From Chloranthus sessilifolius (Eukaryota; Streptophyta; Magnoliopsida; Chloranthales; Chloranthaceae), in assembly GCA_021018995.1 (NCBI GenBank), contig CM037596.1:68923367-68987366 (forward strand): a DNA stretch of 64,000 bases, in the 5' to 3' direction. The notes under the pieces are model-generated. The model worked only from the letters and a program-made list of their open reading frames with translations. It was not told where the DNA came from and did not search any database. A program made the position numbers and the translations under genes. Positions 5,809 through 47,249 of the stretch are shown piece after piece. How positions within the stretch are numbered: the first letter of the stretch is position 1; each line of letters starts with the position of its first letter.

Positions 5809-6107
5809 AGGAATTGCATTCCCGTATTATACTAGATTTTGTTAAGAGAGGATAGTTACCCAACCGTGTGAAACTCCTTCTTCTCTCTTCTTCAATCATC
5901 GTAGGAGATCGGTTTAGAAAACCTCCTTCTCTAGAACCCTCTTTGTTGAAAACACTTAAACCTTAGAAAGAACTTGAATCAACCTTGAATTCATAGTTGG
6001 CTATTGGGAGAGGTTGAGATCATTGGGGGCGTGTTGGAGTTGTCTCTGTGAACTCGTGGGATCGATCGCGGCGCGAATCGTTGAGGAAACCCGTCGGTTT
6101 TTATAAT

Positions 6108-6732
6108 CGTTCGAGCAAGGTATCACCGAACTCTGACATTGCCTTAGTATTTTAGTCATAACGTTTTATTCCGAACTCTGATTAAGACGATTCTTTTTGC
6201 GTTGGAAAGCTAATAGAAACATCTACAACTTTCATGTTTTGACCAACTCATGAATCAATCATCTTGATGGTCAAAAAAATATGAGAATGTTACGTCAAAT
6301 CGCTTGAGCGAGCTATTATCATCGCTCGAGCGAGGTATCACCGAACTCCGACATTACCTTAGTATTTTAGTCATAACTTTTTATCTCGAACTCCGAGTAA
6401 TACGATTCTTTTTGCGTTGGAAAGCTAATAGAAATATCTACAACTTTCATGTTTTGACCAACGCATGAATCAATCTTCTTGATGGTCAAAAAAATATGAG
6501 AAGGTTACATCAAATCGCTCGAGCGAGCTATTATCATCGCTCGAGCGAGGTATCACCGAACTCCGGCATTGCCTTAATATTTTAGTCATAATGTTTTATC
6601 TTGAACTCCGATTGAGACGATTCTTTTTGCGTTGGAAAGCTAATATAAAAATCTACAACTTTCATGTTTTGACCAACACATGAATCAATCGTCTTGATGG
6701 TAAAACATATATGAGAATGTTACGTCAAATTC
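6108..6732 (+). repeat. Tandem 215-bp repeat, three copies, inside the LTR
   Basis: The phrase TATCACCGAACT recurs at 6121, 6336 and 6551, exactly 215 bp apart, and the copies remain closely similar over most of each unit (for example GCGTTGGAAAGCTAAT in all three). Units are joined by the 12-bp palindrome TCGCTCGAGCGA or a close variant. The third copy ends near 6732. This is a unit-length duplication within the LTR downstream of the promoter. Confidence 0.9.
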
Positions 6733-14166: not shown

Positions 14167-14221
14167 CACTACAAAAATTATCGGATACGCCGACGGCTGA
14201 AATTTATATGCCGTCGGCGTA
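14167..14221 (+). repeat. CACTA left terminus and subterminal hairpin
   Basis: The terminal CACTACAAAAATT is followed by TACGCCGACGGC (14186-14197) and its reverse complement GCCGTCGGCGTA (14210-14221), a 12-bp perfect stem with a 12-base loop. Subterminal repeats of this kind are the binding sites of TnpA-like proteins in En/Spm elements; binding here is inferred. Confidence 0.85.
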
Positions 14222-15439
14222 GGAGAAGATTTGGGCCAAGCCTCGACAGCTAACTCGCCCCTCCACTTAAGCCCACGACCGATCCAATCGGGCCCCTATA
14301 TAAGTATATTTTTTCCATCTCCCTTCTCCCGAACTCAAACCTTCTCCCATCTCCCTTCTTCCCTCATTCCCTCTCGCTCAAACCCTAAATCTCCCTCATT
14401 TCCTCTCGCTCAAACCCTAAATCCCTCTCGCTCAAACCCCTCTTGCTCAAATCTCTCTCGTTCAAACCCTAGCTAGCATTCACTTCTCCATCAACGATAC
14501 CTAATCTCCGAGATTTTAATGCTGTGAGACCTTTGGGATGACGCCATTGAATAATGCCATTGAAGAGCCCTGTTGAAGACGATTGAACAACTTCATCAAT
14601 TTTTTATTTCAATTTTCAGGTACTCTCCTCTCCTTATCGAAGATGTTGAATTGTGCCCTGCTTTTCCAATCTTTGATTTTCTTTTTGTTCCTCTGATTTG
14701 ACTTAGGGTTTTTATTTTTATTTTATTAGAGCTCCCTCTCACATTGAGACTCGGCCAATATGCACAATTGAGTTATTTTTCCTATGCAGTGCACCGCTGT
14801 GGGGATTTGTTGTTGCTTTTATGTTGTTTAACATCAATGGTGAGGATGATGCTCATCAGAAAATGATTAGATTTATTTCAAATTTCTGGCATTTAAATTG
14901 GCAAGGGATTTTGTTTGAGTTTATTTTAGGCTTCTTCTTCCTCCCAAATCTATTTCAGACATAACTTTAGCTATGCATCATTATTTTTCTTGATGAAGAT
15001 AATGGTAAATATGGGTTTACATTTTAACTAGATTTGTCATCAATTTTTTTATTGTTCATTATTGATAGATGCAGATTTTTTTTAAATGCTCAAAGGGTAG
15101 ATTGATGATCTGTAGAGGGGTTTATCTTCATATATCTAAACATACATGGTTTTCCTTATTATTTTTGTGTGATTTGCATCTACATAGATGATTTTTACTT
15201 TTTAGCTTTTATGGCTTACAGTTCGAAACTACTGATTTTTTTCAGATGTTGACCGGCTTACATAGTCGATCTTGCCCAGTTTTCTAGGTATAGATTTATT
15301 AATAGGCACTCTTGATCAAAGCGTTTTCTCTGTATGTTCTTCGATCTGAACCAATTTATGTCCACAATTCTATGTAATTGAATGCCCATAATTCTATAAT
15401 TCAATTTATGTTCACAACGGATGCTACTTATTTATGCAG
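14222..15439 (+). promoter_or_regulatory. CACTA 5' region: TATA box and CT-rich leader
   Basis: A TATA-like CTATATAAG lies at 14296-14304. Downstream is a CT-rich leader with the unit CTCTCGCTCAAACCCTAAATC repeated several times (14380-14470), then AT-rich intron-like sequence with CAG acceptors (for example 14613-14619). No ORF of note. It probably is the element promoter and 5' untranslated exon/intron region. Confidence 0.45.
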
Positions 15440-15547
15440 GTTTACTTTGGTCAAAATTTAGTCTGTGGGAAAGGAATGACTATTAAAGTAGGCGATCCTA
15501 TCTACGTTCTTAAAAAGGTTTCATCATTTGAGGATGCAGCAGTTTGA
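15440..15547 (+). pseudogene. Captured last exon of an mARC/MOSC-domain protein gene
   Basis: After an intron-like TTTATGCAG acceptor, 35 codons read VYFGQNLVCGKGMTIKVGD, then PIYVLKKVSS...EDAAV and a stop at 15545-15547. This is the C-terminal end of plant MOSC-domain (mitochondrial amidoxime-reducing component-like) proteins, whose last exon carries the YFGQN...VIKVGDPVxVLKK pattern. It lacks a few residues after LVC compared with relatives as I know them. The rest of the gene is absent. It lies in the CACTA on the same strand as the transposase. Identification is by motif memory only. Confidence 0.7.
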
Positions 15548-15734
15548 GTTCAGAGACTATCTCAACTGTCTCAATTCGCATGGTAATTTTTTTTTTGTTC
15601 CGTTATTAATAACTAGAGCTATCAACAGGTCAGCTTGGCCCATTACCCAAACCCGCCTAACCCATTTTTCTAATCGGGCACATAAATTTGATCCTCATTA
15701 ATTTTTCTGGTAGTGCTGGTATTCCTCGTCATAA

Positions 15735-16212
15735 TTTGCTACCAAAATGACCATCAAGAAATGCCCTAAACTGATTGCTCTGCCTAGATGTCCCTCACTT
15801 GAAAAATTAATGCTGCAAGGGAGTAATACTACAGTTTTTCTTGCAGTAGCAGACATCACATTTCTTTCATTTCTTAGCATTCATGAATTTCAGGAGACAT
15901 CTCTACTTATAGGGTATCTAACCCCTCTTCAAACTCTAATAGTTGATAGTTGCCCTGACCTTGTCCTCGTGCATCTCAAAGAGTTTACTACTTTGAGAGT
16001 AATGCATGTTAAGTGGTGCAGTAACCTCTTTTCTATCATGAACCTTAAATCTCTTGAAAAACTGCTTTTGTCTGGGTGTGAGAAATTAACAAAGAATTGG
16101 TTAACAGAGGAGGAGCTTATCCTAGGCTTGACCGATCTTAAGAATTTGTGCATTGATAACTATCGTAGTATAAAGTCTTTGTCTGATGGCGTTCAACACT
16201 TGACTGCCCTCG
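15735..16212 (+). pseudogene. Captured NLR leucine-rich-repeat fragment
   Basis: About 155 codons of LRR sequence of the plant NBS-LRR (disease resistance) type: LTIKKCPKL-like, LIVDSCPDLVLVHLKEFTTL, MHVKWCSNLFSIMNLKSLEKLLLSGCEKL and LTDLKNLCIDNYRSIKSLSDGVQHLTALESL. The C/N-P-x-L and SLPxGLQHLTxLxxL-like spacing is that of CNL-type C-terminal repeats. It has no NB-ARC domain, no start of its own and no clear gene 3' end, so it is a fragment. It lies in the CACTA just after the mARC exon. A small hAT-end-like sequence (15612-15690) sits between the two. It could alternatively be an older local R-gene relic that the CACTA enclosed. Confidence 0.72.
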
Positions 16213-16216
16213 AAAG

Positions 16217-16435
16217 TCTATTTTATCTATTTCATTATTATAATGAGGGATATTCAAGTGGCAGTCCATCGTTTAGTATTCATTTCATTCGTCCATCTGT
16301 TTTATCTAATTCATTATTATTATAATCAGGGATGTCCAAATGGCAGTCCATCGTTTAGTATTCATTTCATTCACCCATCTGTTTTATCTATTTCATTATA
16401 ATAATCGGGGATGCCCAAGTGGCAGTCCATTGATA
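16217..16435 (+). repeat. Tandem repeat of about 80 bp
   Basis: GGCAGTCCATCGTTTAGTATT occurs at 16260 and 16342, and a third partial copy (GGCAGTCCATTG) at 16421, with the flanking TTTTATCTATTTCATTAT repeated likewise. There are about 2.6 copies, immediately downstream of the LRR fragment. Confidence 0.85.
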
Positions 16436-16439
16436 GATG

Positions 16440-17440
16440 GGACAACCCAATGGTGCTGATAAGAGAATTTTAACCATATAATTAAAGCGTTTTGTGCATG
16501 TGGTATGTATCTTGCTTATAGATGCTTTGACATTTTACTTGGGATCTTACACTTCTTTCTCATTAATATTCCGAGATTTCAATGCATCTCATTTTCTTTT
16601 CTTTTTGTTCAAAATTCTCTCTTAATAATTTTTGCAAATGCTTTTTGATGATATTCTACTATCAATTTATCATGTAGTCATGATTTACATCGAGCTTACA
16701 TACATCGTAATATATGCTTATCTTGGAAATTATAGAAATTTAGAGTTTGTAAATGATTTTTGGCTTTCATATGTTGGTGCAATTCTTTTCTAACATGCTC
16801 GCAAATCTCGCATACATGATGAAAGTGTTGGAATGAGACGACATATGGTATCGTTCATTTGTATTTTGACGAGTAGTGAATTTATGTTGCAAATGATTAA
16901 AAATATAAAACAATAAAATTAAAATAACGATGAATTCTTGTTGTATGCCTCTCTTGCAATTAAAACCAATGAGGAAGATCTTGTGGAGAATGGAGATGTC
17001 ATTTGTGCAAGACCGGCAAAGGCTATGGTTCGAGAGGACTTCCTTTATAGTTGAAAAGGGTTTTGGCATTTGAGATTATGGACATGAGTGAAATCAAGGT
17101 TAAGGTTAGTGTTATGATTGGTTCAAAGAGAGAGACCCGGAAAAACAAGGAAGAAAAAGTCCAGAAAAGATAGGCAGTAGGCATTGAATGAAGAATGTAG
17201 GCTGACATCTCGATTCGAGATATTGACCCCTTTATGATCTACTTAAGACATAAATGGGAATACAAGTTGAGTCTATTTTTATGCTTTTTCATCTATTCAT
17301 ATAACTGTGGATCATTATATATTCAATCGTCATTCGAAGGTATAAATCGAATCCTTCAAGGCATGTGATCATTCATAATATAACAAGAATCCGTTGTTGA
17401 TATATTTGGCATAGGTTGTAATCCCCCTTTATGTCTTGTA
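16440..17440. other. No recognisable gene
   Basis: AT-rich sequence inside the CACTA. Short reading frames only, none with a domain I recognise. Confidence 0.5.
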
Positions 17441-18190
17441 CGTCATCATTTCAATGGGGTCTCATAATATGCTCTATAATGCCTTAGAAATCCTGAACCC
17501 GAGTCCGGTGTGTACTGCACAAGTATCCTTTGTCAAGGGCAATCTGCACCTTCTAATTTAGATCAAATCATTAAAATGTGCAGAGCACCTTCAAAGTGCA
17601 GTATACGTATTGAATTAAGTGATTAGTCACGTAAACCCGGGAGAATGCCCTGGTTAAAGACTTAAGTGATTGGTTTAAGGTCTAGAGATCAAATGGGCTA
17701 GGTACCTAATTATTTTTGAAGCTAGTTACATAAGGACCATACACGGTCTTGAATGTGCAGGTCACACATTGGATCAGTGCACATAACTATATATGCCAAC
17801 TCACATGCATAACATTTGCATGCATTTTGTTTTAGAGTTTTGAGAAAGAAAGAACCCACAAGAGCTTTCTCTATTCTTTTGAAGTAGAAACCTTTGAACT
17901 CCTTGCTCGATCACTTATTTCACGCCACGAGAAACCTCGTGATGAATCCGAAATCAAGAGAAATACCGATCAGCAACCATCGAAATCAAGAATTGATCTA
18001 TCGCGAGAGAAGGAATGATCTAACACTGATTAGAACTTGCGTTTTCACACAAGTTCCCAAGTAGATCAGTGGTTATTACCGCTATTTTCAACTGTGTTTT
18101 AACACAGAAAATCTGACCTTAATATTTATAAGATCGAGGACAATTTAGTGGTGTTTTGACACTGTGAAACTGGTTTCTAAGTAGTTTTTT
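17441..18190 (+). other. Possible solo LTR remnant (uncertain)
   Basis: The stretch has the feel of a copia LTR: a TATATATG at about 17790, then purine-rich sequence, and an end-like region with TCAACTGTGTTTTAACACA at 18089-18107. I cannot define paired TG...CA ends or a target duplication, so the call is weak. No gene is seen. Confidence 0.25.
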
Positions 18191-18423
18191 ATCTACTAAC
18201 CTGAAGTTATAGCATTATGGGCTGCGGTTTGCATTAAAAAAAAAATTATATTTTCAGCGAGATTCTGGAGATCATTTGATTTTTTTGGTAGTTCTTTCTT
18301 GTGCTTCATCAGCATTGGATTGATTGTATGATGGTACATATAGAGATTCTGTCTATATGCTTTCTATTTGTTTTTCATACATTCGATTTATGACTGACTA
18401 GTTTCAAACTTGGAATTTGTAGG

Positions 18424-18464
18424 TTCTTGTGAAGCAAGCTGGTTTGAAGCTCCAAGAAAATGTA
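18424..18464 (+). other. Intron-flanked mini-exon-like sequence, unassigned
   Basis: Between an acceptor (TTTGTAG) and a donor (GTAAG) lie 13 codons reading VLVKQAGLKLQEN. It looks like a captured internal exon but is too short to name. Another acceptor/donor-bounded stretch occurs at about 18238-18267. Confidence 0.3.
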
Positions 18465-18863
18465 AGATTTTATTCCTCATTCTTTTCCCTTAGCCTTTCC
18501 ATTCTAGTGTGGAACTAGTTTGCGATTTAGTTCGCTTCGGTTCAGTTAGATAGAGAGAATTGGAAACTTTTAAAGAAAAAAACTTAATTTTGGTTGAATA
18601 CTTCACTGAATTGCATATGCTTTAGCAAGTATAGGGGAGAAAAAAAACCCAAATCTGATGCTTCTCGGTTAAAGCCATCTGTAAATTTAAAAAAAAATCA
18701 CTTAATTACAAAAGAAAGATTACCCTACTGAGTTTTTTATTAGAATCAAATTTTTGACTTTTTCAAAATAGGAAAGTATCAGCCAAACTTACTTACATAG
18801 CAACTAGGAAAGTATCAGCCAAACTAAAAAAATGTTCTTTATGGATTTTGCTTCTTAATGCAG

Positions 18864-18950
18864 TATTATTTTAAAGCACGTTTTCCCTTCAACAAAGATC
18901 AATTTGCTGATTTACTGCTGATATCTGGTATTGCAGGAGTTATATCATAG
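18864..18950 (+). pseudogene. Captured exon of an MFS transporter gene (hippocampus-abundant-transcript-like)
   Basis: After an AATGCAG acceptor, 28 codons read YYFKARFPFNKDQFADLLLI then SGIAGVIS and TAG, followed by GTATTT. In plant hippocampus-abundant-transcript / tetracycline-transporter-like MFS proteins the motif is YYLKAxFHFNKDQFADLMxISGIAGxISQ, so TAG is most simply CAG (Gln) mutated at the exon end, and GTATTT the donor. Only this one exon is seen. Same strand as the transposase genes. Identification is by motif memory. Confidence 0.62.
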
Positions 18951-19244
18951 GTATTTTTATTTGCTATTGTGCATTTATATGTTTGTTAACATGAGATTCA
19001 TTGCATTTCTTCTCTTCGCACTTATATTAAGTTTTTCGATGCTTCTCATACCTATATCATAGGTATGTCTATTACTATTTTGTCGACCCTCCTTGTGATT
19101 GATAAAGTTGAATCATAGTGTTTGATCGTATTAGTATCACTAGTCTTTCTCACTTTCTCTCACTTTCTCATACTAGTCTCACTAGTCTCACGAGTTCAGC
19201 TCAAATAATCAATCTCTATTTTCAAAGCTTCTTGCATAGACATT

Positions 19245-21803
19245 ATGGATAAAAGCTGGATGCAGAAGCCTCGGTAAGCATTTTTTATTACGACTAATTA
19301 ATATTCCTAAATAGCTAGTATTTTGATGAAGTGGTGAAAGTAATGACTTTTTGAAATATGTTGCTATAATAGAAACACTGAAGCATACTATGATGGGGCA
19401 AGAGATTTCATTAAATTTGCTGACTCTCGTGGAGCAGTTTATGATGGAAGGTTAAAATGCCCCTGTATCAAATGTTGCAACGTCTACTATCAAGACGTGA
19501 AGACAACATATGATCATATCATATGGCACGGAATTGGGAAGAGCTACACTACGTGGTTTTTTCATGGGGAAAATAACACGTCATCGAGTTTTACACGAGA
19601 TGAACCATTGGCTGATGTAGTTGAAGAAGATGATGATACAACTGATGATATGAGGAGCATGTTACATGATTTGTGTGGGGTTCTGAGTGAAGAAGAAACT
19701 CATGATAGTCCGAGACAAGGCACAGAGAGTACATTGGATGACAATACAGCTAGATTTTTTAAATTGGCCGATGATGCGGAGTTGGCCCTCTACACGGGGT
19801 GTAAACATACAAAATTATCTTTTATCGTAAGACTATGGCATATCAAATGCCTTTGTGGATGGAGCAACAAATCCTTCTCAATGTTACTTGACTTGTTAAG
19901 AGAGGTGCCTTATTGGGAGCACAATCTCCTAAGACATAATCTCGATGTGATGCATATTGAAAAAAATATTTGTGATAATGTGCTCTTCACGCTTTTGGAC
20001 ATTGATGGAAAAAGTAAGGATGAGATAAATGCGAAAAAAGACTTGGCTGAGATGGGATTGAGGAAAGAGTTGCATCCACAACAAATAGATTCAAACAAAT
20101 TCAAATTACCAGCTTCAATTTACAATTTGGATAGACATGGAAAAGAACAGTTTTGCAGAGTCCTTAAAAATATGAAGATTCCGGATGGTTTCTCGTCTAA
20201 TATCTCAAGCCGTGTCAATGTCAAAGAACGAAAGATAACTGGATTGAAAAGCCATGACTCACACACCATATTACAATATTTTTTGCCTATGTGTATTCGA
20301 CATATCCTACCAAAGTATGTGGCGAGGACTTTAATAGACTTGAGCACATTCTTTCGCGAATTATGTTCGAGAGTTTGTCGAACTGACGATTTGATCCGCC
20401 TCGAGAAGAACATAGCACTGACACTTTGCCATTTTGAGCGGATCTTCCTGCCTGCTTTTTTTGCCATCATGGTGCACATGTCGATACACTTGGCATCGAT
20501 GCATTACTTGGTGGACTGTGCACTATCGATGGATGTATACCATTGAGAGGTTTGTATTGATGCCTTGTCACTTTTCAATTAAACATGAGAGAATATTAAT
20601 GTGTTTGATAACACAAACTTAAGTTGTCGAAATCGGTACTTGTTCACTTTAAAGTCGTATAAATAATAGGGCTCAACTTTGAGGGTCCATTGCAGAAGCC
20701 TATTTGGCGGATGAATGTCTCACATTTTGCTCTCGATACTTGCACAATGTTGAGTCAAAGCTAAACCGACCCAAAAGAAGTGATGAGGAAACATCAATGA
20801 GAAGCGCCAAAGTGTTCAATCTTACCGATTTGGAATGGACACAGGCTCATCGTTATGTCCTCTACAATAATGTTAACGTCATAGGATATATAGAGTATAA
20901 AGCGTTAACAAAAATTCCTATTATATTTAGAGAGTTGATTTATTCAATTGTTTTAATATATGAATCCTTTTATGTAGGGATCATAAAAGAGTAATTCGAC
21001 ACAAGTTACATCGCATGCGCTTGCATGATATAGAGAAAGAACACGAAAGGCATTTCATCTATTGGATTAAGGATCGTGTATGTAACTATATATTTCTAAA
21101 ATCATCATCAATATAGCTCATTTTTTCTCATGATTAATACTTTCTCCCCTATTCTTAATAGATACGAGATGAAATGAAAATTGGATTTACATTGCCAAAA
21201 GAGCTTCAGCTGTTAGCCGAGGGACCTCATCATATTGCTGAAAGGCTGAAATGCTATCCTATTAATGGATACAATTTCAAAACAGTTGCAAGAGAATCAA
21301 AGACTAAAATGCAAAATAGTGGAGTCTATCTATCGGCGGCGAGTACTAGCTTTGCAAGTGGGATATCAATCCGATTATTGGCAATGTGGAATATTTTGGC
21401 CGATTGATCGACATAATTCAGACTAACATATTCTGATAAATTGAAGGTTACAATGTTCAAATGCGAATGGGTAGATGTTCGCGTAGAAGGGAGGGGAATA
21501 AAGCAAGATCATTTGGGGAACACACTTGTGAATTTCACACGATTGGCATTTTCTGATGAACCATATGTGTTGGCTTCCCAAGTCAAACAAGTTTTCTACG
21601 TAGATGATCCTATTGACCCAAATTGGAAGGTTGTTTTTAAAGTCAAGCCCAAAGGAGCTTCTGAGTTGAGAATAGAAGATCGTGAACTGTTAATGAGTGA
21701 CCAAAATTTAAATGATAGAGGAAATGTAAATGATGATTGTGTGATGACGAGTGGATTAGAACAGATCGAGAGGAGAAATTGTTGTAGTGTGAGGACTTCA
21801 TAA
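19245..21803 (+). pseudogene. TNP2-type CACTA transposase with internal deletion
   Basis: Transposase of the En/Spm TnpD/TNP2 type. Exon 1 (19245-19273) encodes MDKSWMQKP; a GT-AG intron follows; exon 2 runs 19373-20545. Residues 1-90 are the transposase-associated domain (CPCIKCCN, TYDHIIWHGIGKSYTTWFFHGE). Then LLDLLREV joins in frame at about 19905 to PYWEHNLLRHNLDVMHIEKN, so most of the TNP2 catalytic core, some 250 or more residues in relatives, is missing. The DUF4218-like part (HMSIHLA) ends exon 2. Further exons are 20697-20994, about 20977-21079, 21162-21407, and a DUF4216-like end (FKCEWVDV, LASQVKQVFYVDDPIDPNW) at 21441-21803 after a frameshift. It is not expected to be catalytic. 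Confidence 0.88.
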
Positions 21804-21869
21804 TGACAATGAACAATAGTATTTCAGATTATATGAGACAAAGAGGATGGTCTAAACAATGGTTGATAT

Positions 21870-22130
21870 TATATTAAACAGATTGGATGGTCTAAATCTC
21901 CCTAAAATGCCATTTTTGGGCTCTTACACGTCAATCTATCACTTTAATTATATTATTAAATAGATTGGATGATGTAAGATCATTTAAACACCATCTAGTA
22001 TTTTAGGGAGATCCACACTGATACATATCAGGTATCACCCAACCCAAAAGAAAAGTAGGCTTTCAAGGGCCTCAAGATATCCACACCGATACATATCAGG
22101 TATCAGCCTCCCATAAGGTTACATATCCAC
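21870..22130. repeat. Fold-back repeat and short duplication
   Basis: ATCTCCCTAAAATG (about 21895) is mirrored by TATTTTAGGGAGAT (about 22000), with GATTGGATG repeated between, so the segment can fold back like a small MITE. Next to it CCACAC(C/T)GATACATATCAGG is present twice (about 22012 and 22082). Confidence 0.45.
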
Positions 22131-22698
22131 ACCTATAAGATTGTGAAATGCTGATTCCACATGTTACACATCCCCAAAACTGCCTGATCATGGGTGTACT
22201 AGAAGAGGTTCTGAGGTCATTTTTGAAATCTGTGCCATGTATAATCAATAGCTGATCTCATAAGTGAGCCATCATCCAGATGTCAGTTTTGTGGAAGATT
22301 GGGCCGAAAAATGATCTCTATCGTTCGATTCAAGACAGTCAATGATTTTTATGCGAGAAAACCTTGATTGCAAAGACTGAATATTTGGTTGCAAATACTG
22401 TTATTCTAGTGATATTGGTGATGCTACCATTACTGCCTTCAAAACAATCCAAAATAATTAAATAATGTGTTTTTTCCACTTTAACTGTTCCATAGCTGTT
22501 TATGACTGTTATGGCTGCAGTTTCTACTTTCCAATGGATTTTGTGGTAACTCAGATGTATACCTTCCTCCTTTGTGAAGCTTGATGTCAATGATCTTTTC
22601 TAGTCTTTTGGGTACCCTGATTGTTCTTTAAAATCATGGACAATAGTATCTGATAGCCATAATTGTAATATTTTTCCTTGATTGTTTGGGTGTTACAG
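22131..22698. other. Non-coding stretch inside CACTA
   Basis: No domain recognised. The end (from about 22600) reads like the 3' part of an intron, with a T-rich run and GTGTTACAG leading into the neprosin-type exon. GATTGGGCCGAAAAATGATCT near 22299 resembles the fold-back family at 12693-13162. Confidence 0.4.
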
Positions 22699-22784
22699 AG
22701 TGAAGATGGAGACATCATTGATAGTGTTGATTTCTATAAACAACCTGCTTTTGGTAATCCTTTGCTCAGAATCACACAATCCAG
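22699..22784 (+). pseudogene. Captured exon of a neprosin-type (DUF239) protein gene
   Basis: Bounded by TGTTACAG on the left and CCAG|GTTATT on the right. It reads [20 protein letters not shown], then LL, and after a one-base deletion NHTIQ. This matches the neprosin activation-peptide domain of plant DUF239 proteins ([29 protein letters not shown] pattern) as I remember it. The single-base loss in CTCAGAATCAC shifts the frame. Both splice sites are kept, so genomic DNA rather than cDNA was captured. The neighbouring downstream exon is from a different gene (FEN1). Confidence 0.75.
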
Positions 22785-22959
22785 GTTATTTTTTAAACAT
22801 TCTTTTCTCTTTGGTTTTATTGTATGATATATGATCATCTGCCCCTGTGTATATTGGTGCAGTGTTGGGTAATAACTGATTTCTCTAGTTATGTTGGGTA
22901 ATAACCGATATTTAACTGCCGATAACAAAATTGTATATTGATATGTATTTTTTGAACAG

Positions 22960-23169
22960 GCCATAGAAAAGATCAAAGCAACAAAGAACAAATCATCTCA
23001 AGGCCAGTGAGTGGTATTGTGTAAATAGGCAATCTTTTGATGGGTATGTAAATTAGAATGAAAGATTTAGAGTTTATCTTGTATTGATTTTGGTGTCATT
23101 TTTGTTATATACAGATTAGAATCGTTCTTTAAGCCAGCTGTGAGTGCATCAGTACCCATTAAACGAAAG
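22960..23169 (+). pseudogene. FEN1: Captured FEN1 C-terminal exons with intron
   Basis: Two exons of flap endonuclease 1, the nuclease that trims Okazaki-fragment flaps. Exon A, 22960-23006, follows an ACAG acceptor and reads AIEKIKATKNKSSQG. The intron is 23007-23114 (GTGAGT...TACAG). Exon B, 23115-23169, reads LESFFKPAVSASVPIKRK and ends at a GTATAT donor. Together these are the C-terminal region including the PCNA-binding PIP-like box (Q-x-x-L-E-S-F-F); plant FEN1 has SQGRLESFFKP, here R is Q across the junction. The phases match across the intron. The nuclease domains are absent. It is a fragment captured as genomic DNA. Confidence 0.85.
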
Positions 23170-24582
23170 GTATATGCTTCAAATCAGACATAGTTTATAT
23201 ACTAATTTGTTACTACGATCATTGTTATGATACTCTGAAAGCCTGTGAGAAATTTAGACTGCGAAGCTTTGTGCCAACCAAATTTGAGGGAACTCATACC
23301 TATTTCTGCTGATGGATTAATTAAAGTCTATGGAATTTACTTAAAATGGAGCGAGTATATATATTAGATATTTGGAGTTATGTGTGTTTACCTTTTCAAA
23401 ATTTGAAGGTCAAACTTTAATTTGTATGTGGTCAGTTTAATTTGTATGTGGTCATTCTCTGTTTTACGGTATCGATTTTTTTGGTCAGCAGATTCACTTG
23501 CTCGAAACAGTTATCTACAGTTGTACACAAAAAAGGATTGTTAAAAATATAAAGAGGCTCACTAGCACTGATTGAATGCCCCCGGGTGAAGAAATAAGCC
23601 ACAAACCTCTTATACTTTGGTATTTATTAGAACAATCATATGATACTGTATTTCTTTAAGAACAGAGACCAAATTGGTAAGTGTGACAAATTCAGTTTTT
23701 ATGCACAAACAGAACAAAAATGTTCAAACGATAAGCCTATAGAAAACTATGTAAGGTTCACTCTTGAATCCAGTTTAGAAAACAAGAAACAATAAAGTGA
23801 ATACATTGCTTGTCAGAAACAATAAAGAACATGAACAAGATACCCCATATCCTTGGGGAGTCCAGTTCTTCAAATTGTAATTCTGAACTAAAGAAGTGTC
23901 AAGAAATTTGGCAAATTGCTTCCAATCAGCCAAAAGAAAAGTAAATGCATGGTAGAAACTAGATACTATTAATGTTGAGGTGCATAATGGAGAAGCTTGG
24001 AATAGCATCAAAATCTGAAGTTTCATTGATGCATTTATAAGTGAACTTGGGGGAAAATTTATGTTGGAGAAATAGAGGCTCATACATTACTGAATACTAA
24101 GTCATAGGACTTACTAAGTAATATGGAAATTGGACCAGATCGGTAGTGTTCCGCATTTCATAACCATGTCAGCATTGTGGTTAAAGTCTTACAATTTAAT
24201 ATTTGATCTTACAACTAGAGTCGAATTCCACTGCTTGCAATTCAAATCTTACACTTAAATCCTTTGAAATCTTACAATTTGTGGATGTATCCTAGGATCT
24301 AGATTGGAATCATACAGTGCCAACCAAATCTCCCCTAAAACTTGATCCTTTTTTTCTTTTCGTTTTCAGAATTTATGGAGGCTTAAAACCCAAATGGCAG
24401 ATCCCTTCCCATTATTTAACCATTTGGATAGAAATATTGGAGTTAAAGGTTGTTTCAAAACTCTAAATGCTCGAAGAAAGAAATTGCAAGAGCTATACTT
24501 AGCTACTGAATGAATTTTAGGTATCTGTCAACACATTTTCACATTGAAGGAGGAATCTGTCGCTATATCACCTTCCTATATC
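23170..24582. other. Stretch without a named gene; one coding-like tail
   Basis: Mostly AT-rich. At 24361-24511 one frame reads WRLKTQMADPFPLFNHLDRN and on to LQELYLATE-stop, which looks like a protein C-terminus after an exon acceptor (TTTTCAG at 24364), but I cannot name it. GTCAGTTTAATTTGTATGTGGTCA is part of a short direct duplication near 23420-23455. Confidence 0.35.
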
Positions 24583-24610
24583 TTCAATTCAATTCAATTC
24601 AATTCAATTC
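24583..24610 (+). repeat. (ATTCA)n microsatellite within a 54-bp duplication
   Basis: About five ATTCA units, flanked by two copies of TATCACCTTCCTATATCTT (about 24565 and 24621), just upstream of the NAC start codon. Confidence 0.8.
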
Positions 24611-24650
24611 TCTAGTCATCTATCACCTTCCTATATCTTTAAAAGCATAT

Positions 24651-24785
24651 ATGGGTCTAAGAGACATAGAGGCCAAGCTACCACCAGGGTTTAGGTTCTA
24701 CCCTAGTGATCAGGAGTTGGTGTGCTATTATCTCTACAAAAAGATTGCTAATGAGACAGCTTCTTGGGGAACTATGGTGGAGATT
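24651..24785 (+). pseudogene. Captured NAC transcription-factor first exon (N-terminal fragment)
   Basis: Starts ATG at 24651 and reads MGLRDIEAKLPPGFRFYPSD, then QELVCYYLYKKIANE and GTMVEI: NAC subdomains A and B, the start of the DNA-binding/dimerisation domain. The MGLRDI start is typical of the NAC021/NAC022-like group. Homology stops at about residue 45, and a stop follows at 24801. Subdomains C-E and the activation region are missing, so no DNA-binding protein results. It sits 170 bp upstream of the first TnpA-like exon, on the same strand. Whether the 5' end includes a captured promoter is unknown. Confidence 0.88.
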
Positions 24786-24957
24786 TACCTCTATATATAT
24801 TGATAAGCTTTCCAAAAATTAGTATTGGGTGTAAAATAAACATCTAATCTGTTTTTAAAATGTTTGACTCGGCCTTTTAGTTCCGCTTTATATGTTGCTT
24901 TTTAGTATTGGGTGTAAAATGTTTTAACCTAATTTGCTTTTTATGTTGCTTTCAGAT

Positions 24958-26316
24958 ATGGATCAAAATCAGCCATCACAAAAAAAAGTACGAGGGAAAA
25001 CTTTATGTGCTGATTTGCATAGAAATATACCAAAGCACCGTCTCCCACTTGTTTTCAATGATCGGGGTCAACCAGTAGGAGGCGAGGATGTGAAATTTAT
25101 TAGCTACCTTGGAGTCTTATCAAGAGATGGGTCTTTTTTACCCATCGATTGCCCTTCATGGGACGCTGTGGACCCTATAGATAAAGAAAAGGTTTGGGAC
25201 GCTGCTAAGGTAAATATAATTAATTATTTCTTATTGAGAATATATGCATTTCAAATTATTTATCATTGATAATTTCTTTTCAGATCGCGAGTTCTCTTTG
25301 AAATTCCCGAAGACGACAAAGTAAGAACTTGGTTCATGCAATCAGTAGGAAGAAAGTGGAAGGAACACCGCTGCGATCTAAAAAGAAGATATTTTACTAA
25401 GCCCCTCCCTAAAGGAGTAGATCCATCCTCTCTGAACCCGCTAGGGGTTGACGGGAGACAATGGTTGAATTTAGTCGGTAGGGATGGGCATTGGCAAAAC
25501 TCTAAAACAAAGGTAGGATGACGGTTCTCAACATATTAAATTTTTATACATTCAAACTTATTATAAATGTATATAATAGAAATTAATTTTTTTCCAGAAA
25601 ATGGTTGAAATAAATAAAGTCAACCGAGAAAAAAAGACGATGCATCATACAACAGGGCGGAAAAGTTTCCCTTCAATTATTGCATCAGAAGTAAGTGAAT
25701 TTATATTATTTTCTGATTAATCGTACTTTGTATATTTTATAATTATTATATACTTTCTTCTTCATCTTATTATATGAAATCATATTAATATCTGTGTTTA
25801 TTTTTTAATTTTACAGACTTCAGAGGATGGTGTAGAACCTAGTCGCGCCAATATATTCAAAATTGCATATACGCACAAGGATGGTACACCATCAAATAGT
25901 GTGGTCGCGGATGCATTGGTAAAATTTATAATAATTTTTAATTACAGGTCATGTTTTATTTCTTAAAATAAAATATATTATTAATTATTACAGGAGAAAA
26001 TAAATAGACAACAAGAGAAACAACTAGAGGGATCCAAAGACCCCCCCGGTCGTGAAGATGTCCTCTCTCAGGTTTTTGGAGAGGATCGACCTGGTCGATG
26101 TCGCATCCTTGGAGTGGGACCAACTCCATCACGAGAATGGGGGGGCAAATCCAACCGTCAAATGTCAAAACAAGGGGAGATGGCTTGTTTGAGGAGCAAG
26201 ATAGCAGAATTGGAAGAAAAAGAGAAAGAAAGAAATAGAGAAATGCAAGAAAGAATTAGAGAGATGCAGGAAAGAGACATAGAAAGAGATAGAAAGATGA
26301 AAGAAAGCGATGCATA
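24958..26316 (+). CDS. TnpA-like protein (Transposase_24 / Ptta-En/Spm family), five exons
   Basis: The second CACTA protein, thought to bind subterminal repeats and assist transposition. Proposed exons are 24958-25209, 25285-25512, 25599-25690, 25817-25918 and 25994-26316, each bounded by AG and GT, with TTTCAG just upstream of the first ATG. Recognisable parts: FNDRGQPVG and SYLGVLSRDG (N-terminal), FEIPEDDKVRTWFMQSVGRKW, NREKKTMHHTTGRKSF, VFGEDRPGRCRILGVGPTPS, and a C-terminal coiled coil rich in EKEKERNREMQERI. The order matches plant Transposase_24 proteins. No stop falls inside the exons as drawn, though phases were only checked by eye. The start could be further upstream if exon 1 is longer. 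Confidence 0.75.
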
Positions 26317-26731
26317 AGCACGATGGCGAATAGAAGAATTGAAGAGAATGTTCCTCGCTTTACAAAGATAGATATCGAAGGTAATTGATTTACCTTTTTT
26401 ATATGTTCTTTCTTCAATAGTAGTTTAATAGCATTCTTCTTTGATTTATGGCTATGGTGTCCTTGCTTGCATTATAGTAGCGAAGATAGTGAATGCAGTG
26501 CCCCTTTACGTCATAAATGTTTAAGAATTTTGTTTTTGTTTAAGAACTCTACTTTTTCGTTGGGATTGGTTCTTGTTTGTATAATTCTTATTCCATATTC
26601 CATCAAACTCCTATTTCGTAGCTGCTGCACAACTCTATATTTATTTTAAAAATACGATGGCTGAATTGATTAGGTGATTATATTTATTTTAAAAGAGTTA
26701 TAGTAAAAAAATTTCCACTCGTGAAATATTG
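26317..26731. other. 3' region after TnpA-like gene
   Basis: No domain. T-rich non-coding sequence, likely the gene's 3' untranslated region and spacer up to the MITE. Confidence 0.4.
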
Positions 26732-26739
26732 AGGTGTAG

Positions 26740-27018
26740 CAAGGTATAAAAAAGTGGCTGATACCGATATATATCAGCGATGCGTATTGATTTTTTGGCA
26801 AACCGATACGTAGCGATTCGATACGTATTGGTATCCCAACTTGGGTATCGAATACTGTATCGGCCGATAGGGGCCCGCATCGGCCGATACGTCTCGGTTT
26901 CGGCTGAGACGTGGCTTTTCCTTTTTCTTTTAAAAAAAAAGGGCCGATATGTATCGGCGGAGTCGTATCGGTCCTCCATTGACCGATACCCAATGCCGAT
27001 TTCGATTTTAATACCTTG
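26740..27018. mobile_element. MITE built of GATACGTATCGG-like words (hAT type)
   Basis: A 279 bp element with inverted ends CAAGGTAT(A/T)AAAA and flanking 8-mers AGGTGTAG (26732-26739) and AGGTGTAC (27019-27026), a 7-of-8 target duplication that fits hAT elements. The interior is almost wholly made of short palindromic CCGATACGTATCGG-type words in both orientations. No coding capacity. Confidence 0.7.
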
Positions 27019-27026
27019 AGGTGTAC

Positions 27027-27725
27027 AATGGCTCAACTTTAAGGTCACAAGTTCAAACCCAGCCCATATATGTGAATATTTTAGCTTAAAGGCAGCACCA
27101 TTCATCAAATAAGAGTTTTTTTTGTCCAAACTAGCCCTAAGGGATGCACACACCATAAAAGACCCAAGAATTCTTCATTAATTGGATCTATTGGACAGAT
27201 ATAAATATAGCCAGTGAAAGAAGGCAGTGGGATAAGAGAAGAAGCTAACAAACAATTGATGACCAGCAAGATAACAGTGCATTATTTTGAATGACTATGA
27301 CAAATACCTACAATTTTTTCAGTCAATCAGAATATGATTACTTGTCATTTTGTATAACTTTGCACTTCAAGGTTGGGGATCCACTGCAAGCACTCTTATT
27401 TTCTTGATCAGTACAGAGATGTATTAAATCGCCAGGGTGTTCCCACCAATTTCTTTGTAAGTTCTTCTCCCATCTTGTCACCTTCTTCTAACTTTGTTTC
27501 AGACATGTTTATTCCTTCCGATGAAGGTAACTAATGAAGCAATCTTGATTCTTCAAGAATGACCCAAATAGACTGATTATCATGTCAGTCAAATTATCCA
27601 TGCACCAACTTGCTATGATCATTCAATTATAAAACAAAAAATATTAACACTCTTAGTTATGGCTTCCAATATGGAAATTAGATTGGAAAGGTAAGTCATA
27701 GAACTCACAGACAGATATATTTCAG
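27027..27725. other. Stretch with an unassigned exon-like piece
   Basis: A reading at about 27388-27455 (YFLDQYRDVLNRQGVPTNFF) ends at a TTCTTTGTAAGTT donor and looks like an internal exon of some plant gene, but I do not recognise it. The rest is intron-like and AT-rich. Confidence 0.35.
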
Positions 27726-27996
27726 GGGCGGTTACAACTGTCATATGTGCAATTACTTCCCCGAGGAGGTTATGATGTTGCTCTAGGAACTCAAGCGATA
27801 TCCCTTCAGCTTAGTGAAGGAAGCTTCCTGACTGATTCAACGAGCCAGTTGACTTGATAGCTACAATTTGGAGGATATCTCTGTTGTTCCAAGCGAGGCT
27901 AACTCTGAGGGAGACAAACTTGCCAAAGAAAGGGCTTCAAGCAGTGATCTTCTTCTTGATTACCTGGTTAATTTTCTCGCTGCCTCAGGCCTTTGA
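27726..27996 (+). pseudogene. Captured C-terminal fragment of an unidentified host protein
   Basis: After a TTTCAG acceptor the reading GRLQLSYVQLLPRGGYDVAL continues to about 27848. After a stop and frame change it goes on as NLEDISVVPSEANSEGD, LAKERASSSD and LLLDYLVNFLAASGL to a stop at 27994-27996. The composition is that of real protein, not of shadow frames. I cannot name the gene. It is on the same strand as the other captured pieces. Confidence 0.45.
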
Positions 27997-28110
27997 TGGA
28001 CATGCACAAGCCTTCTCAAATGACATTCTGACTTGTATAGCACTGTTTGTAGTTATTTTTATTCAAATCTGTTAAAACCCTAATGGCTAAGCTAAATCTT
28101 TTACTAATGA

Positions 28111-28285
28111 TATATGCAGGCTGTGAAAGAGTGTTTTTACTTTTGATTAATCCTCTAGTTACTTATCCTTCCAGAGGATGCTTAGTACGATTTCAATGCT
28201 GCTCCATATGTTAGTAGACAGTCTATGTTGGAATACTGCATGATTTTAGTTCAGCCTGATAAAAAGTTTTGCTGTCGTCTTGCAG
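28111..28285. other. Intron-like spacer with exon-like traces
   Basis: A TTCCAG acceptor at about 28170 precedes a short reading (YDFNAAPYVSRQSMLEY) with a stop near its start; not assigned. The segment ends in CTTGCAG, the acceptor of the next captured exon. Confidence 0.3.
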
Positions 28286-28361
28286 AAGGAATCCCGTCAA
28301 TTGGAATGTCACCATTTGCCTGTGGATGGTCAACTTCTGAGAGAAATGTTAGAATCTCCAG
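28286..28361 (+). pseudogene. IPK: Captured exon of isopentenyl phosphate kinase
   Basis: After GTCGTCTTGCAG the reading is GIPSIGMSPFACGWSTSERN. Plant isopentenyl phosphate kinase (cytosolic amino-acid-kinase-fold enzyme that phosphorylates isopentenyl phosphate) has A-x-EGIPxIGMSPFSCGWSTxxR at this place, so the match is close. Only this exon start is present; similarity ends after about 25 residues and a stop follows. The acceptor plus exon start is partly duplicated at 28411-28441 (AGTCGTCTTGCAGAAGGAAC). Identification is by motif memory. Confidence 0.72.
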
Positions 28362-28964
28362 TCCAGATTGACTGTGATTTATTAGATTATATAATTGCAC
28401 CAACAATCACAGTCGTCTTGCAGAAGGAACCCCGCCAATCGTAATGACAGGCGAGTGGTGTATTTTGTGATCAGTGAATTTCACAGGTCATGTTTTCACG
28501 GAAAAGAGTCAAATTTTCTCTTTTTTTCCTTCAAAACATTAAAGCAAATTAGATCTCCAAGGTTAAGTTACTTTTATAAAGTTCATATAGGCCTAGTGCC
28601 CAACACCTACGATTGTGAATATAGTTCATAAAGAGAAATGTGAGTATTCACTATGTTATTATGTTTTATGGATGAATCATACTCTATATCCAATATTTTC
28701 TATTTTTTCATATTTTTGATGAATTTATTATCATTTTTTGTTGCTATGGCCATTGCATTGAACAACAGGAATTGAAAGTCCATTTTCCTGAGGCAAGAGA
28801 AGAGGTCAACGGGTCTTAATGAGGTCAACGGGTCTTAATGATTATATTTCAAGAAGATAATGCTTAGTCCTTTGCTTTGTGCACTTGTTACATCAATTGG
28901 TAAAATAAATGAGAAAAGTACCTAATCAGGACCCGTACCTGTGTTTGTGTTTTTGTGTGTGTGC

Positions 28965-28965
<1 letters not shown>
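28362..28965. other. No recognisable gene
   Basis: Contains the partial second copy of the IPK exon boundary (28411-28441) and a 21-bp tandem duplication (GAGGTCAACGGGTCTTAAT at about 28802 and 28821). Otherwise AT-rich with no gene seen. Confidence 0.45.
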
Positions 28966-29038
<73 letters not shown>

Positions 29039-29110
29039 GTGCCCAGCAAAAAAATATATAAAATTGTGCCCAACAAAAAAGGGCGCTAATAAACCCCCCC
29101 CCCCAAAAAA
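28966..29110. repeat. (TA)n microsatellite, short duplication and homopolymers
   Basis: 34 TA units (28966-29033), then AAAATTGTGCCCARCAAAAAA twice (about 29033 and 29058), then a C run of nine or more and a long A run. Confidence 0.95.
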
Positions 29111-29252
29111 AAAAAAATTTGTAAAAAAAAGGGCCTCTGACGGCCATTTGTAAGACATAGATATTAAAATATTTTTAAAACACCTATGCCATGCATGAGC
29201 CTCGGCGTGTATTATATAAAATTATATAAATTTTAAAAAAATTTAATAACCC

Positions 29253-29404
29253 TACGCCAACGGCATCCGCCGTCGGCGTAGATTCATGACTTACGCCGAC
29301 GGCTGAAAACCGTCGGTGGTTAGATTCCCCGACGAGAATAGTGCAAGCGGTGTGTCGGTATTTGGCGTAGATATTACGTCGTGATTACGTTTTTTTTTGT
29401 AGTA
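29253..29404. repeat. CACTA right subterminal repeats and terminus
   Basis: TACGCCAACGGC (29253-29264) pairs with GCCGTCGGCGTA (29269-29280). TACGCCGACGGC recurs at 29292-29303, with a partial partner CCGTCGGTGG after it. The terminus TTTTTTTTGTAGTA (to 29404) mirrors the left CACTACAAAAA except that the final G is A. Confidence 0.85.
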
Positions 29405-31502
29405 ACCCATGTTTCATAAATTTTCATACAAGACCCAAGTTGAAACTGCTTCATACAAGACCCAATCAGTTACTTGTTTCATCATTTCCTTGCCCCTACC
29501 CTCTATGATTAATTGAACGCCAATTCAGCAAGGGCTATTTTCGTTCTCATAAATTATACAATACAAAAGCTGTATAAATTATAACAAGTTTACTATGTTA
29601 TGCTTCTCTCAAATCTCCCTATGCTGCTATGCCTATGCATCTCTCCTCCGCCCTTTTTGACCCTTTTCCATGAAAATCTTTTTCTTCAATAACTTGTAAA
29701 ACAGAGAAAATACAAAAATTATAACTTGTAACTTGTGCTTAATGTAAATAATCAAACTCATCTCAAAAGGAACTCGTATTCCTTCATTCTCATCAACATC
29801 GACAACACCACTATAACTATGATGTATCCTATCTTGACCATAAATTAACATTTCTACCGTCTTTGGATGTAATAATATATCCCGCACAATTATGGAAAGA
29901 ACCGGGTATGTAGTTGAGTTAATTTTTCATCATGCTAAAATATCAAATTTTCGGTTTGAGATTCGTGTGGACTCTCTAAATACAAGTCTAATTCGGATTT
30001 GTTCGTAAACTGGCCGGACCTTTACGCTTACCCTTACTTTTAAATTGCCGCCACAATGACAAAACTTGAGGACAACCCTCATTGGTTGGAACACTTATAG
30101 GTAATTCACAATCATTGCCATCATCGTTGGAACCAAATATACTATTATATTCATTGAACATGATCGTCAAATCACCAAGTACATCCTTAAAATATTTATC
30201 ACCATCCTCTTCTTATAAAATATAAAAAATAAAGGCCGAAATACTCCATTTAAAATGAAGGATCTAAAATCACCACAATTGAGAGGAGTAAAGAAAACTT
30301 TTTCCAATATTTATCAAATTTATCTAGCATTAGCTTAGTCATATTATGAGCCCACACAATCTCTTCGCACACCATTTGTTTTTTAGGTTGTATATAAATC
30401 TTGATTACTTGAAAAAATAAAGGAACAATTGGATAATTAGTACCGGAAAAAATATTTGTAGCTTTGTAAAAAAATTTCAAATAATAAAAAAGGGCTTCGG
30501 CATTAACCCAATCTTCAACCGATGGCGCCGATTGATAGTTCGAATTGCAACCTTTTAACCGAGAGAACTCATCTTTAAATGTGGCTAGCATTTGCCTTGA
30601 CCCAAATATTAAAAATTTTGTTGGAGGGATGGTAATAATTTAATATACTTAATGCTCTCCCTAATATTTGAAATTGTATCTTTAATGGCTTTCAACTCAT
30701 TTTGCGTAATCAATTTGAGAAGATGAAATAACCTATCACCAATTGGAAGGAAGCTCCTAGTAAGATGTTCTCTTAAAGATATAACCATAACACGATTGTT
30801 TGATGCATTATCTAATGTTATAAAAGAATTTTTATGCTTTATTTTTCATCAATGATACATCATAAAATATGATAAAAAAGAACTTGACCCATGTGACGAC
30901 AAGGGATCAAAGGGAAGTTAATCACACGACTTTACAAGTTTCAACTCTCATCAATGAAATGGGCAGTTAGACACATATACCCAAGTTGTTGATTTGAAGT
31001 TCAAAAATCTCTAAGTGAAGCTAATCCTTCTTAGTATTTCTTGAAATAAGTTATATAATTTTACTCTACCTTTTTTGTAGACATAAAAAATTACAACAGC
31101 CATTTTATGTTTGGGTTGTAGACCTTTACACAAGTCAATAAACTCTACGTGACTAACAAATTTAAATGATAATTCATGCAAAATTATCATTCGAGCAACT
31201 AGGTCGTAACATTTACTTTGCTCAAACTTATAGTTACCAACTCCTCCTTTTCCCTCCACACATAACCGTTGTTGTTTACTTTCATTGTTAGCTCATTTTA
31301 TTTTTGGATAAGTTATTTCTCCATGTCTTTTTAAATGGCTAGTTCCATTAGCCCCACTATCAGCGCCAAAGCCAAATAGGGCCTTACAAGGCTTGCATCC
31401 GGCTTTGAGGACTCCCTCAACTGTCACTTCCTTAAAATAGTTTCAGGAACTAGATGTCCATTTCATTTTTTTTTTATGTTCATTGGGGTTTACAATAGAG
31501 GG
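29405..31502 (-). mobile_element. hAT element, right part (transposase side)
   Basis: Continuation of the element whose left part is 13600-14166, separated by the CACTA. It holds the minus-strand transposase relic. No hAT terminus is seen on the right; the element is cut at 31503 by a Tekay-type LTR in minus orientation. Confidence 0.7.
29790..31450 (-). pseudogene. hAT transposase (RICESLEEPER-like), broken
   Basis: Read on the minus strand. A BED-type zinc finger end (CKPCKALFGFGADSGANGTS then HLKRH) lies at about 31410-31330. Then YDLVARMIILHELSFKFVSH at about 31200-31140, the central SVEDWVNAEALFYYLKFFY and SGTNYPIVPLFFQVIKI at about 30520-30400 with MLDKFDKYWKK...ILDPSF to 30250 (DUF4413-like), a linker with WRQFKSK near 30050, and the end of the hATC dimerisation domain (LLHPKTVEMLIYGQDRI) near 29875-29820. 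Several stops and frameshifts occur, so the protein is not made whole. The family is the zinc-finger BED / RICESLEEPER group common in plants. Confidence 0.82.
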
Positions 31503-34023: not shown

Positions 34024-34029
34024 AGTTTT

Positions 34030-46747: not shown

Positions 46748-47249
46748 ACAATCAGCAACACTATTGTGCTTCTCTCTCCTGTATGAAATATTGGATTCTC
46801 CTCACATCCAGGGTCTTGATCCAGAGCTACACCTGTGATGTATAATTGGGGTGAGCTAACAGAGTAAGCTCAGTAGGAGAAATATTAATATCAATATCAC
46901 ATCTCAACATATCAATTCAGATATTCATGACAGAATTTTAAAAGACAATTTACTATCAAAACAAAGTTTGCATACATCCTTAAATCGAAATAAAACTCAT
47001 CAATTCAGAGTTTCATATAAGTTTCAATGATTCGTTCTCAGTTCACAAGTTCACATTTTAATTCAGATTCAAAATTTCTATTCGAATTCAGAGACTTATA
47101 GTGTTCAGATTTCCAGTTCATATCTTACAGTGTTCAAATTTCTATTTCACATCTTACAATGTTCTGAATTTCAATTCATAACTCACAGTGCTCTAAATTT
47201 CCAGTTGCAGTGGTCCAGTCAGTATCTAGTCAGTGTCTAGTCTGTATCC

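Follow-up and report, generated by a model that had tools for sequence, protein, structure and literature searches.

The 15.2-kb element at positions 14167-29404 of a 64-kb stretch of the Chloranthus sessilifolius genome (hereafter the window; C13:68923367-68987366, the genome comprising 2.17 Gb in 32 contigs) is a mosaic CACTA copy with pieces of nine host loci, and is as such a well-documented case of a known phenomenon. We located source or homologous loci for nine pieces, at 86-99% identity and most of them on different chromosomes, which exceeds the seven or more host genes that an earlier note on this DNA had read from the sequence. We consider it likely that this copy is a member of a large CACTA family which has repeatedly taken up host DNA by template-switching gap repair and has been multiplied by amplification. 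How plant cut-and-paste transposons gain host DNA is still debated. Here, the seams are in part readable at base level, along with relative ages and the source or homologous loci, and there is a related copy that is devoid of one captured block; this capture series with its readable seams is the part of the case worth following.

The genome was searched with six internal stretches of the element, one Pfam family and one protein, and the candidate loci were then read. Five of the DNA searches scored the best 40 of 568, 142, 163, 66 and 84 candidates, respectively, and the copy counts and absences given below are lower bounds.

Ends, borders and own genes of the element

The element begins with CACTACAAAAATTATCGG and has the terminal inverted repeats (TIRs) of a CACTA transposon, CACTACAAAAA on the 5′ side and TTTTTTTTTGTAGTA on the 3′ side, the latter with its final base altered (the window copy ends in GTAGTA). 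Subterminal repeats of the types CCGACGGC and GCCGTCGG are present in both orientations at 14190, 14210, 29269 and 29296. No 3-bp target site duplication (TSD) is visible at the window copy, which has TAG on its left and ACC on its right. Its membership in the CACTA family nevertheless stands, because its relatives C7 (ATA), C9a (TCT) and C8 (TGG) do carry one. For an empty-site search, 300 bases from each flank were joined as the query. Among the best 40 of 84 candidates scored, these joined flanks match, for example, C12:95936093 (positions 12-600 of 600, 65% identity) and C15:12856069 (139-469, 72%) across the junction. As related repeats run unbroken across this point, the borders of the element are correctly placed. 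TIRs, subterminal repeats and joined-flank matches thus bear out the CACTA element that the earlier note had drawn at these coordinates. The CACTA is inserted into an older hAT-like repeat; on its 3′ side, the minus strand encodes a hAT-like RNase-H domain (30253-30639, E=1.8e-11), the hAT-like repeat region covering 29405-31300.

The Pfam matches in the element are Transpos_assoc (2e-17), DUF4218 as two parts and DUF4216 (1.2e-22), and there is no Pfam match to Transposase_21 in the window copy. Copies C7 and C9a have about 1 kb of extra DNA at window position 19906-19908; in C7, which is itself broken by stops, its translation matches the first part of Transposase_21 (E=4e-7, 27/213 positions). 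The window transposase is therefore not intact, the Transposase_21 core of C7 being deleted with a 3-bp overlap, TGC, at the deletion. Judged from its sequence, the window copy is probably unable to move by itself, and without the TNP2 catalytic core it would need a helper.

Captured host DNA and its loci

The captured pieces (Table 1) are genomic DNA that includes introns, and several of them keep AG/GT splice borders that can be read directly from the sequence, as the earlier note had observed.

Table 1. Features of the CACTA element, in window coordinates (C, contig; L, locus).
Feature	Position	Strand	Evidence and related loci
CACTA (En/Spm) element, internally rearranged copy	14167..29404	+	5′ TIR, subterminal repeats, joined-flank empty-site matches, related complete copies with TSDs ATA, TCT
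5′ terminal and subterminal region common to the family	14167..15227	+	at least 46 genomic matches to 14167-15400 (best 40 of 568 candidates)
Captured piece X, no name	15228..15345		87% C14:32791379, 85% C14:29492932, 82% C5:34473346
mARC (MOSC) last exon and flank	15380..15730	+, sense	86-88% to C10:30564722 (L029), C6:20115170 (L030)
NLR leucine-rich-repeat (LRR) piece	15740..16219	+, sense	94/91/86% to the NLR cluster at C7:144.73-144.90 Mb; sequence of donor L047 reads as that of an NLR LRR
Presumed MFS transporter exon (18864-18947), its flanking intron and the beginning of the exon after it	18695..19080 (outer borders approximate)	+, sense	83 matches including host genes
TNP2 remnant with Transpos_assoc and DUF4218 but no catalytic core (deleted at 19906-19908)	19347..20546	+	Pfam, copy comparison
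Remainder of TNP2 gene (DUF4218 end, DUF4216)	20683..21803	+	Pfam
Neprosin piece (Neprosin_AP exon)	22625..22904	+, sense	E=2.2e-7 (under curated cut-off); 96% C9:26942229 (L035)
FEN1 3′ exons and introns	22922..23443	+, sense	93-94% to FEN1 gene C7:799-802 kb (L037)
Intron of tubulin-folding cofactor D (TFCD) gene	23475..24569	-, antisense	98.3% C6:40959041 (L034)
NAC exon-1 piece	24566..24784	+, sense	NAM E=5.3e-7 (above cut-off); 98% C1:23959740 (L031), from 24598 C15:78895035 (L032); in copy C14:46146823
Second transposon gene, TnpA-like	24902..26317	+	weak Transposase_24, E=0.007 and 0.03, under curated cut-off
Exons and introns of host gene Y, no name	27077..27950	+, sense (from frames, AG/GT borders)	98.1% C10:23028215 (L039)
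IPK-like gene piece	27948..28414	+, sense	99% C11:56448 (L040), C7:145536322 (L041); second partial copy 28412-28449
3′ subterminal and terminal region, truncated, rearranged	29156..29404	+	comparison with related copies

Among the pieces upstream of TNP2, mARC matches two loci that both hold further mARC exons. At the C6 locus, an upstream exon matches MOSC (E=0.0035, under the cut-off) and human mARC1 (E=0.06), and the exon corresponding to the captured one gives no match to the human mARC1 structure; the window piece itself has a weak match to mARC1 in the PDB (E=0.43) and none to Pfam MOSC. The LRR piece matches Pfam LRR_14 (E=2.1e-4, under the curated cut-off). A tandem repeat of about 80 bp at window 16217-16430 is also present in the NLR cluster (C7:144729028-144905103), and probably arrived together with the LRR piece. 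For the MFS exon, 78 of the 84 bases are identical at a host locus (C2:173460335, L057) where the splice site is intact and the next exon follows; the 28-aa exon has no Pfam match.

Downstream of TNP2, the neprosin exon carries a one-base shift. The FEN1 gene on C7 has an XPG_I match about 7 kb upstream of the region shared with the element, and one of its exons matches FEN1 structures (E=4.5e-5), while the window piece queried against the PDB has no match. L036 and L037 were both considered as CACTA copies, which was rejected because L037 proved to be the FEN1 gene itself. The match between copy L036 and the FEN1 locus extends over about 1.6 kb (94-95% identity), and a segment of C9a that is missing from the window matches the FEN1 3′ flank at 96-98%; on these alignments, FEN1 was captured originally as a longer stretch. 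At L031, a GatB catalytic-domain piece (E=3.7e-19) and the NAC exon lie close together (389-577 and 1235-1458) beside CACTA-like subterminal sequence, and this region on C1 is probably a second gene-capturing element. The identity of gene Y was looked for and was not found; its part 27192-27321 is 100% identical in the copy at C2:92238201. Both IPK-like loci carry an apparent next exon. Copies of the IPK-like locus are located near chromosome ends (C11:56448, C7:145536322, C2:123295 and C2:232666), and L040 and L041 share 2.3 kb at 98.5% identity, a probable subtelomeric duplication.

The earlier note had named seven of these pieces, and DNA matches to loci were found for all of them. At the protein level, NAC is above its cut-off, LRR_14 and Neprosin_AP are below theirs, mARC has the weak PDB match only, and there is no match for MFS and IPK. 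We presume the exon at 18864-18947 to be that of an MFS transporter and the piece at 27948-28414 to derive from an isopentenyl phosphate kinase (IPK) gene; neither Pfam nor the PDB supports these two names. Gene Y may be among the exon-like pieces that the earlier note had left unnamed and without coordinates, and TFCD was not listed there.

The same pieces in other copies of the family

Ten related copies were fetched. Six of them have the mARC and LRR regions, and two of these six, C7 and C9a, also have the MFS region; in the remaining four, the 5′ match ends at 15210. C7 (10.7 kb, TSD ATA) and C9a (11.7 kb, TSD TCT) are complete copies with perfect ends, and C9a carries FEN1 sequence as well. 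The neprosin/FEN1 block is nearly whole at no fewer than four other places (at least four among the best 40 of 142 candidates), and part of IPK lies close to further 5′ ends of the family on C9, C10 and C11. A protein search with the MFS exon gave 83 genomic matches (96 candidates scored), among them the window itself and no fewer than three likely host genes; three of the 83 also share the residue that follows in the host gene. The TFCD block occurs at length only in the window copy and at its source locus, the one other place matched among the best 40 of 66 candidates. Thus, among the candidates scored, some pieces are present in many copies of the family and others in few or in the window copy alone.

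Since the pieces recur in copies of the same family, two of them complete with TSDs, they are not separately inserted repeats, the outcome by which the earlier note would have let its reading fall. On the copies compared, the captured pieces belong to the CACTA family and recur in relatives as different subsets. Other copies with the same set of fragments, which the note had proposed to seek, were not found: among 113 clusters (the window not entered), none has more than 5 of the 12 labels. This cluster table was built from best match rows, without host-gene rows of low identity and with each piece of a copy entered once; some of its entries are host loci, the FEN1 coordinate in C9a is estimated, and the cluster C11:17909011-17937233 joins two neighbouring copies.

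Two local differences between copies are best read as deletions. The neprosin piece was considered as an insertion into C11-type copies, and this was rejected in favour of a deletion, as the match at C9 reaches into the part that is retained; where neprosin is missing from C11 copies, there is a 3-bp overlap at the deletion. Likewise, a 9-bp overlap (21944-21952 / 23194) was considered as a Mutator-type target duplication and rejected, since it is, at the base level, a deletion seam in copy C9a.

Seams between captured pieces

Two of the resolved seams border the TFCD block. In the copy at C14:46146401 (L046), the FEN1 tail (23453-23480) is followed by about 110 bases of its own and then by NAC, without TFCD; in the window, 1.09 kb of TFCD intron takes the place of these bases. 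At the left seam, ATTTTT (6 bp) is common to L046 and TFCD, and at the right seam, read by eye, TATC (4 bp) is common to TFCD and NAC. A third seam, between gene Y and IPK, has TCT (3 bp) in common. All three seams for which both templates are known thus show microhomology, 13 bp in sum (naive P=9e-5), and at none of them did we see a CACTA end, the end of a foreign transposon or a target duplication.

The TFCD block is also the exception to the orientation of the pieces. Its source locus sits between two TFCD_C exons (E=4.8e-17 and 4.7e-25) that lie on the strand opposite to the match, hence the element holds the TFCD intron in antisense. The joints are therefore insensitive to orientation. 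The earlier note's statement that all pieces are sense does not hold for this intron, though all eight exon-bearing pieces are indeed sense. With 8/9 pieces sense, the two-sided sign test gives P=0.039, against 0.016 for 7/7; neither value is corrected for the way in which the pieces came to light, and those passed on jointly do not count as independent observations. The element also illustrates that a pattern which looks all-sense can come from exons being noticed and introns not. As a control, 20 of the 43 minus-strand open reading frames (ORFs) of at least 50 aa were scanned and gave no Pfam match above the curated cut-off. This control is weak, in that the sense mARC, MFS, IPK and Y pieces have no Pfam match either, and the 20 include none of the ORFs that lie opposite the transposase genes, lack several others, and do not extend to exons below that length.

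How the host DNA may have been captured

We propose that the element breaks, for example at excision, that repair copying would then jump by microhomology to unrelated templates and back, leaving a patch, and that later transposition would multiply the patched element. The enzymology of the template switching is what we infer. The pieces probably entered at different times, because their identities to the loci range from 86 to 99%, and the captured exons look like passengers. A more general statement would be that a CACTA lineage grows by serial microhomology-guided template switching, receiving patches in either orientation from different chromosomes that are then amplified, and that its copies form a readable single-step series; we hold this to be about evenly balanced between true and false. 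If it is general, it would provide base-level evidence for gap repair against the tandem-insertion model of Pack-CACTA capture.

In this tandem-insertion model, due to Catoni, a pair of neighbouring CACTA copies moves by its outer ends and takes along the host DNA in between, once per gene. It is the published model for Pack-CACTAs (PMC8903248), reviewed in 2026 (PMC13317346), and the NLR cluster that is the source of the LRR piece sits 0.6-0.8 Mb from copy C7, as would also fit capture by local hopping; the originally long FEN1 capture, with its match of about 1.6 kb in L036, fits it too. However, TFCD and NAC, as well as Y and IPK, are directly joined with overlaps of 3-4 bp although their loci lie on different chromosomes, and an exact search found no internal CACTA end (CACTACAAAA once and TTTTGTAGTG zero times in the window), a search that degraded ends would escape. 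We therefore regard tandem insertion as unlikely, but as the most serious of the alternatives. That the pieces were brought by separate nested insertions into the CACTA (Pack-MULEs, Helitrons or retrogenes) would account for their mixed origins and differing identities, and the borders of mARC, LRR, MFS, neprosin and FEN1 are resolved only in part. Nevertheless, the pieces contain introns, hence are not retrogenes; the three resolved seams have neither a foreign end nor a target duplication; the pieces travel with the family; and the copies without neprosin look like deletions, the neprosin match at 22625-22904 extending beyond the missing segment. Nested insertion is the least probable of the explanations that we weighed.

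A different proposal, raised in the earlier note, concerns the maintenance of the pieces: sense, splice-competent exons would be kept by selection because chimeric spliced transcripts make or regulate products. With splice borders kept, chimeric spliced RNAs are possible on the sequence, and in soybean the exons of Tgm-Express1 are reported to be spliced into transcripts (PMC1947982). The sense orientation of all eight exon-bearing pieces, the minus-strand scan, weak control as it is, and the 32 of 83 MFS exon matches that are identical at 28/28 residues (the window included) would agree with selection. The antisense TFCD intron and the uncorrected sign test speak against it, as do the truncated NAC piece, the one-base shift in neprosin, and the sharing of pieces by descent, which makes them anything but independent trials. 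Moreover, 8 of the 83 MFS matches have a stop. The identical MFS matches had suggested purifying selection on captured exons, and site counts do not bear this out: in 11 copies of the exon there are 7 nonsynonymous variants and 1 synonymous variant, at 64.7 and 19.3 sites. In this small test the exon shows no sign of protein constraint. The sample, composed of the window, C7, C9a and eight copies from the DNA match list, leans to conserved copies, and higher-ranked ones were left out, including C15:13303889 with two stops in the exon. The suggestion of selection for splice-through transcripts is thus unsupported, and we consider it very improbable, if slightly less so than nested insertion.

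Several points weigh against our preferred reading, that of template-switching gap repair with captured exons as passengers. Both templates are known for three capture seams only, and one of the overlaps is mostly a T-run; comparable seams could result if broken pieces were joined by their ends or if copies recombined with one another, the repair event itself being what we infer from them. L046 and the window copy are not ordered in time, neither being proved older, and which copies lack a given piece is known in part, from the best-scored candidates. The immediate source is uncertain for some of the nine pieces: for mARC and MFS, no locus exceeds 86-93% identity; the NAC locus L031, beside CACTA-like repeats and the GatB piece, may itself lie inside an element; and at the neprosin locus L035 no other neprosin exons were recognised within 3 kb. 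The proximity of the NLR cluster and the length of the FEN1 capture count here as well, and so do the 32 identical MFS matches, together with a lower divergence of the MFS exon (1.7%) than of its flanks (2.8 and 3.1%).

Relation to known gene-capturing elements

As in Tgm-Express1, the CACTA of the soybean wp allele described as a 5.7-kb element in which five genes are captured and chimeric transcripts are spliced (PMC1947982), CACTA ends here surround exons and introns of several unrelated host genes; working splice sites are a feature of Tgm-Express1. Unlike it, the window copy is 15.2 kb long, has pieces of nine loci, keeps transposase remnants and is known from DNA alone. As in the Pack-CACTAs of Arabidopsis and maize, host coding DNA from several loci is enclosed within CACTA ends. 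According to PMC8903248, it is the Pack-CACTAs of maize that hold the most distinct loci, and elements that match a transposase are put in a class separate from the Pack-TYPE ones. That so many sources are joined in one copy, a point stressed in the earlier note, is a matter of degree, given the five genes of Tgm-Express1 and the multi-locus elements reported in maize. The window copy has host DNA with loci elsewhere and pieces that are mobilised along with the element, as Pack-CACTAs or transduplicating CACTAs do. It is not a strict Pack-CACTA, a class defined by having no transposase sequence, because TNP2 remnants are present; unlike Pack-CACTAs, it keeps these and TnpA-like remnants, and its seams suggest template switching rather than tandem fusion. 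It is better called a CACTA with captured genes.

The Jozin elements of Chenopodium, CACTA-like elements described as carrying neprosin and AP2 pieces, come close to the window copy in their length, their Transpos_assoc and Transposase_24 domains and their captured neprosin piece, and the mechanism of Rubin and Levy is named there for the capture (PMC8978399). As described, they have few captured genes, upstream of ORF1, whereas in the window copy pieces are located upstream of, between and downstream of the transposon genes. Microhomology at capture breakpoints is shared with the gap-repair model of Rubin and Levy and with the Pack-TIRs of animals (gap-filling, FoSTeST), for which a range of 1-36 bp and a median of 2 bp are given (n=190; PMC8277862). 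Those are mostly single captures in animals, unlike the several captures in one plant CACTA lineage seen here. Other reported cases are a CACTA of grapevine that contains a PPR piece in antisense (PMC2528002), Tgmt* in soybean (PMC2613891) and 140 capture events on wheat 3B, where break repair is named as a CACTA-linked route of duplication (PMC4290129). Gap repair has thus been proposed for plant transposons before and is prior art. In a limited search of the literature combining CACTA with microhomology and template switching, we found, among the titles listed, none on microhomology-guided capture in a plant CACTA. The copies of this family (the 5′ end has at least 46 matches and the MFS exon 83, host genes included) could decide between template switching by gap filling and tandem fusion.

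Other repeats in the window

Within the element, 26770-27000 is rich in CGATACGTATCGG-type motifs, and similar translated text was noticed by eye in loci L029 and L039. Outside it, a direct repeat of 2.2 kb with 94.6% identity (31866-34024 and 44581-46748) possibly represents the long terminal repeats of a retrotransposon of about 15 kb, and a tandem repeat at 6101-6730 has a period of about 215 bp and 90-92% identity.

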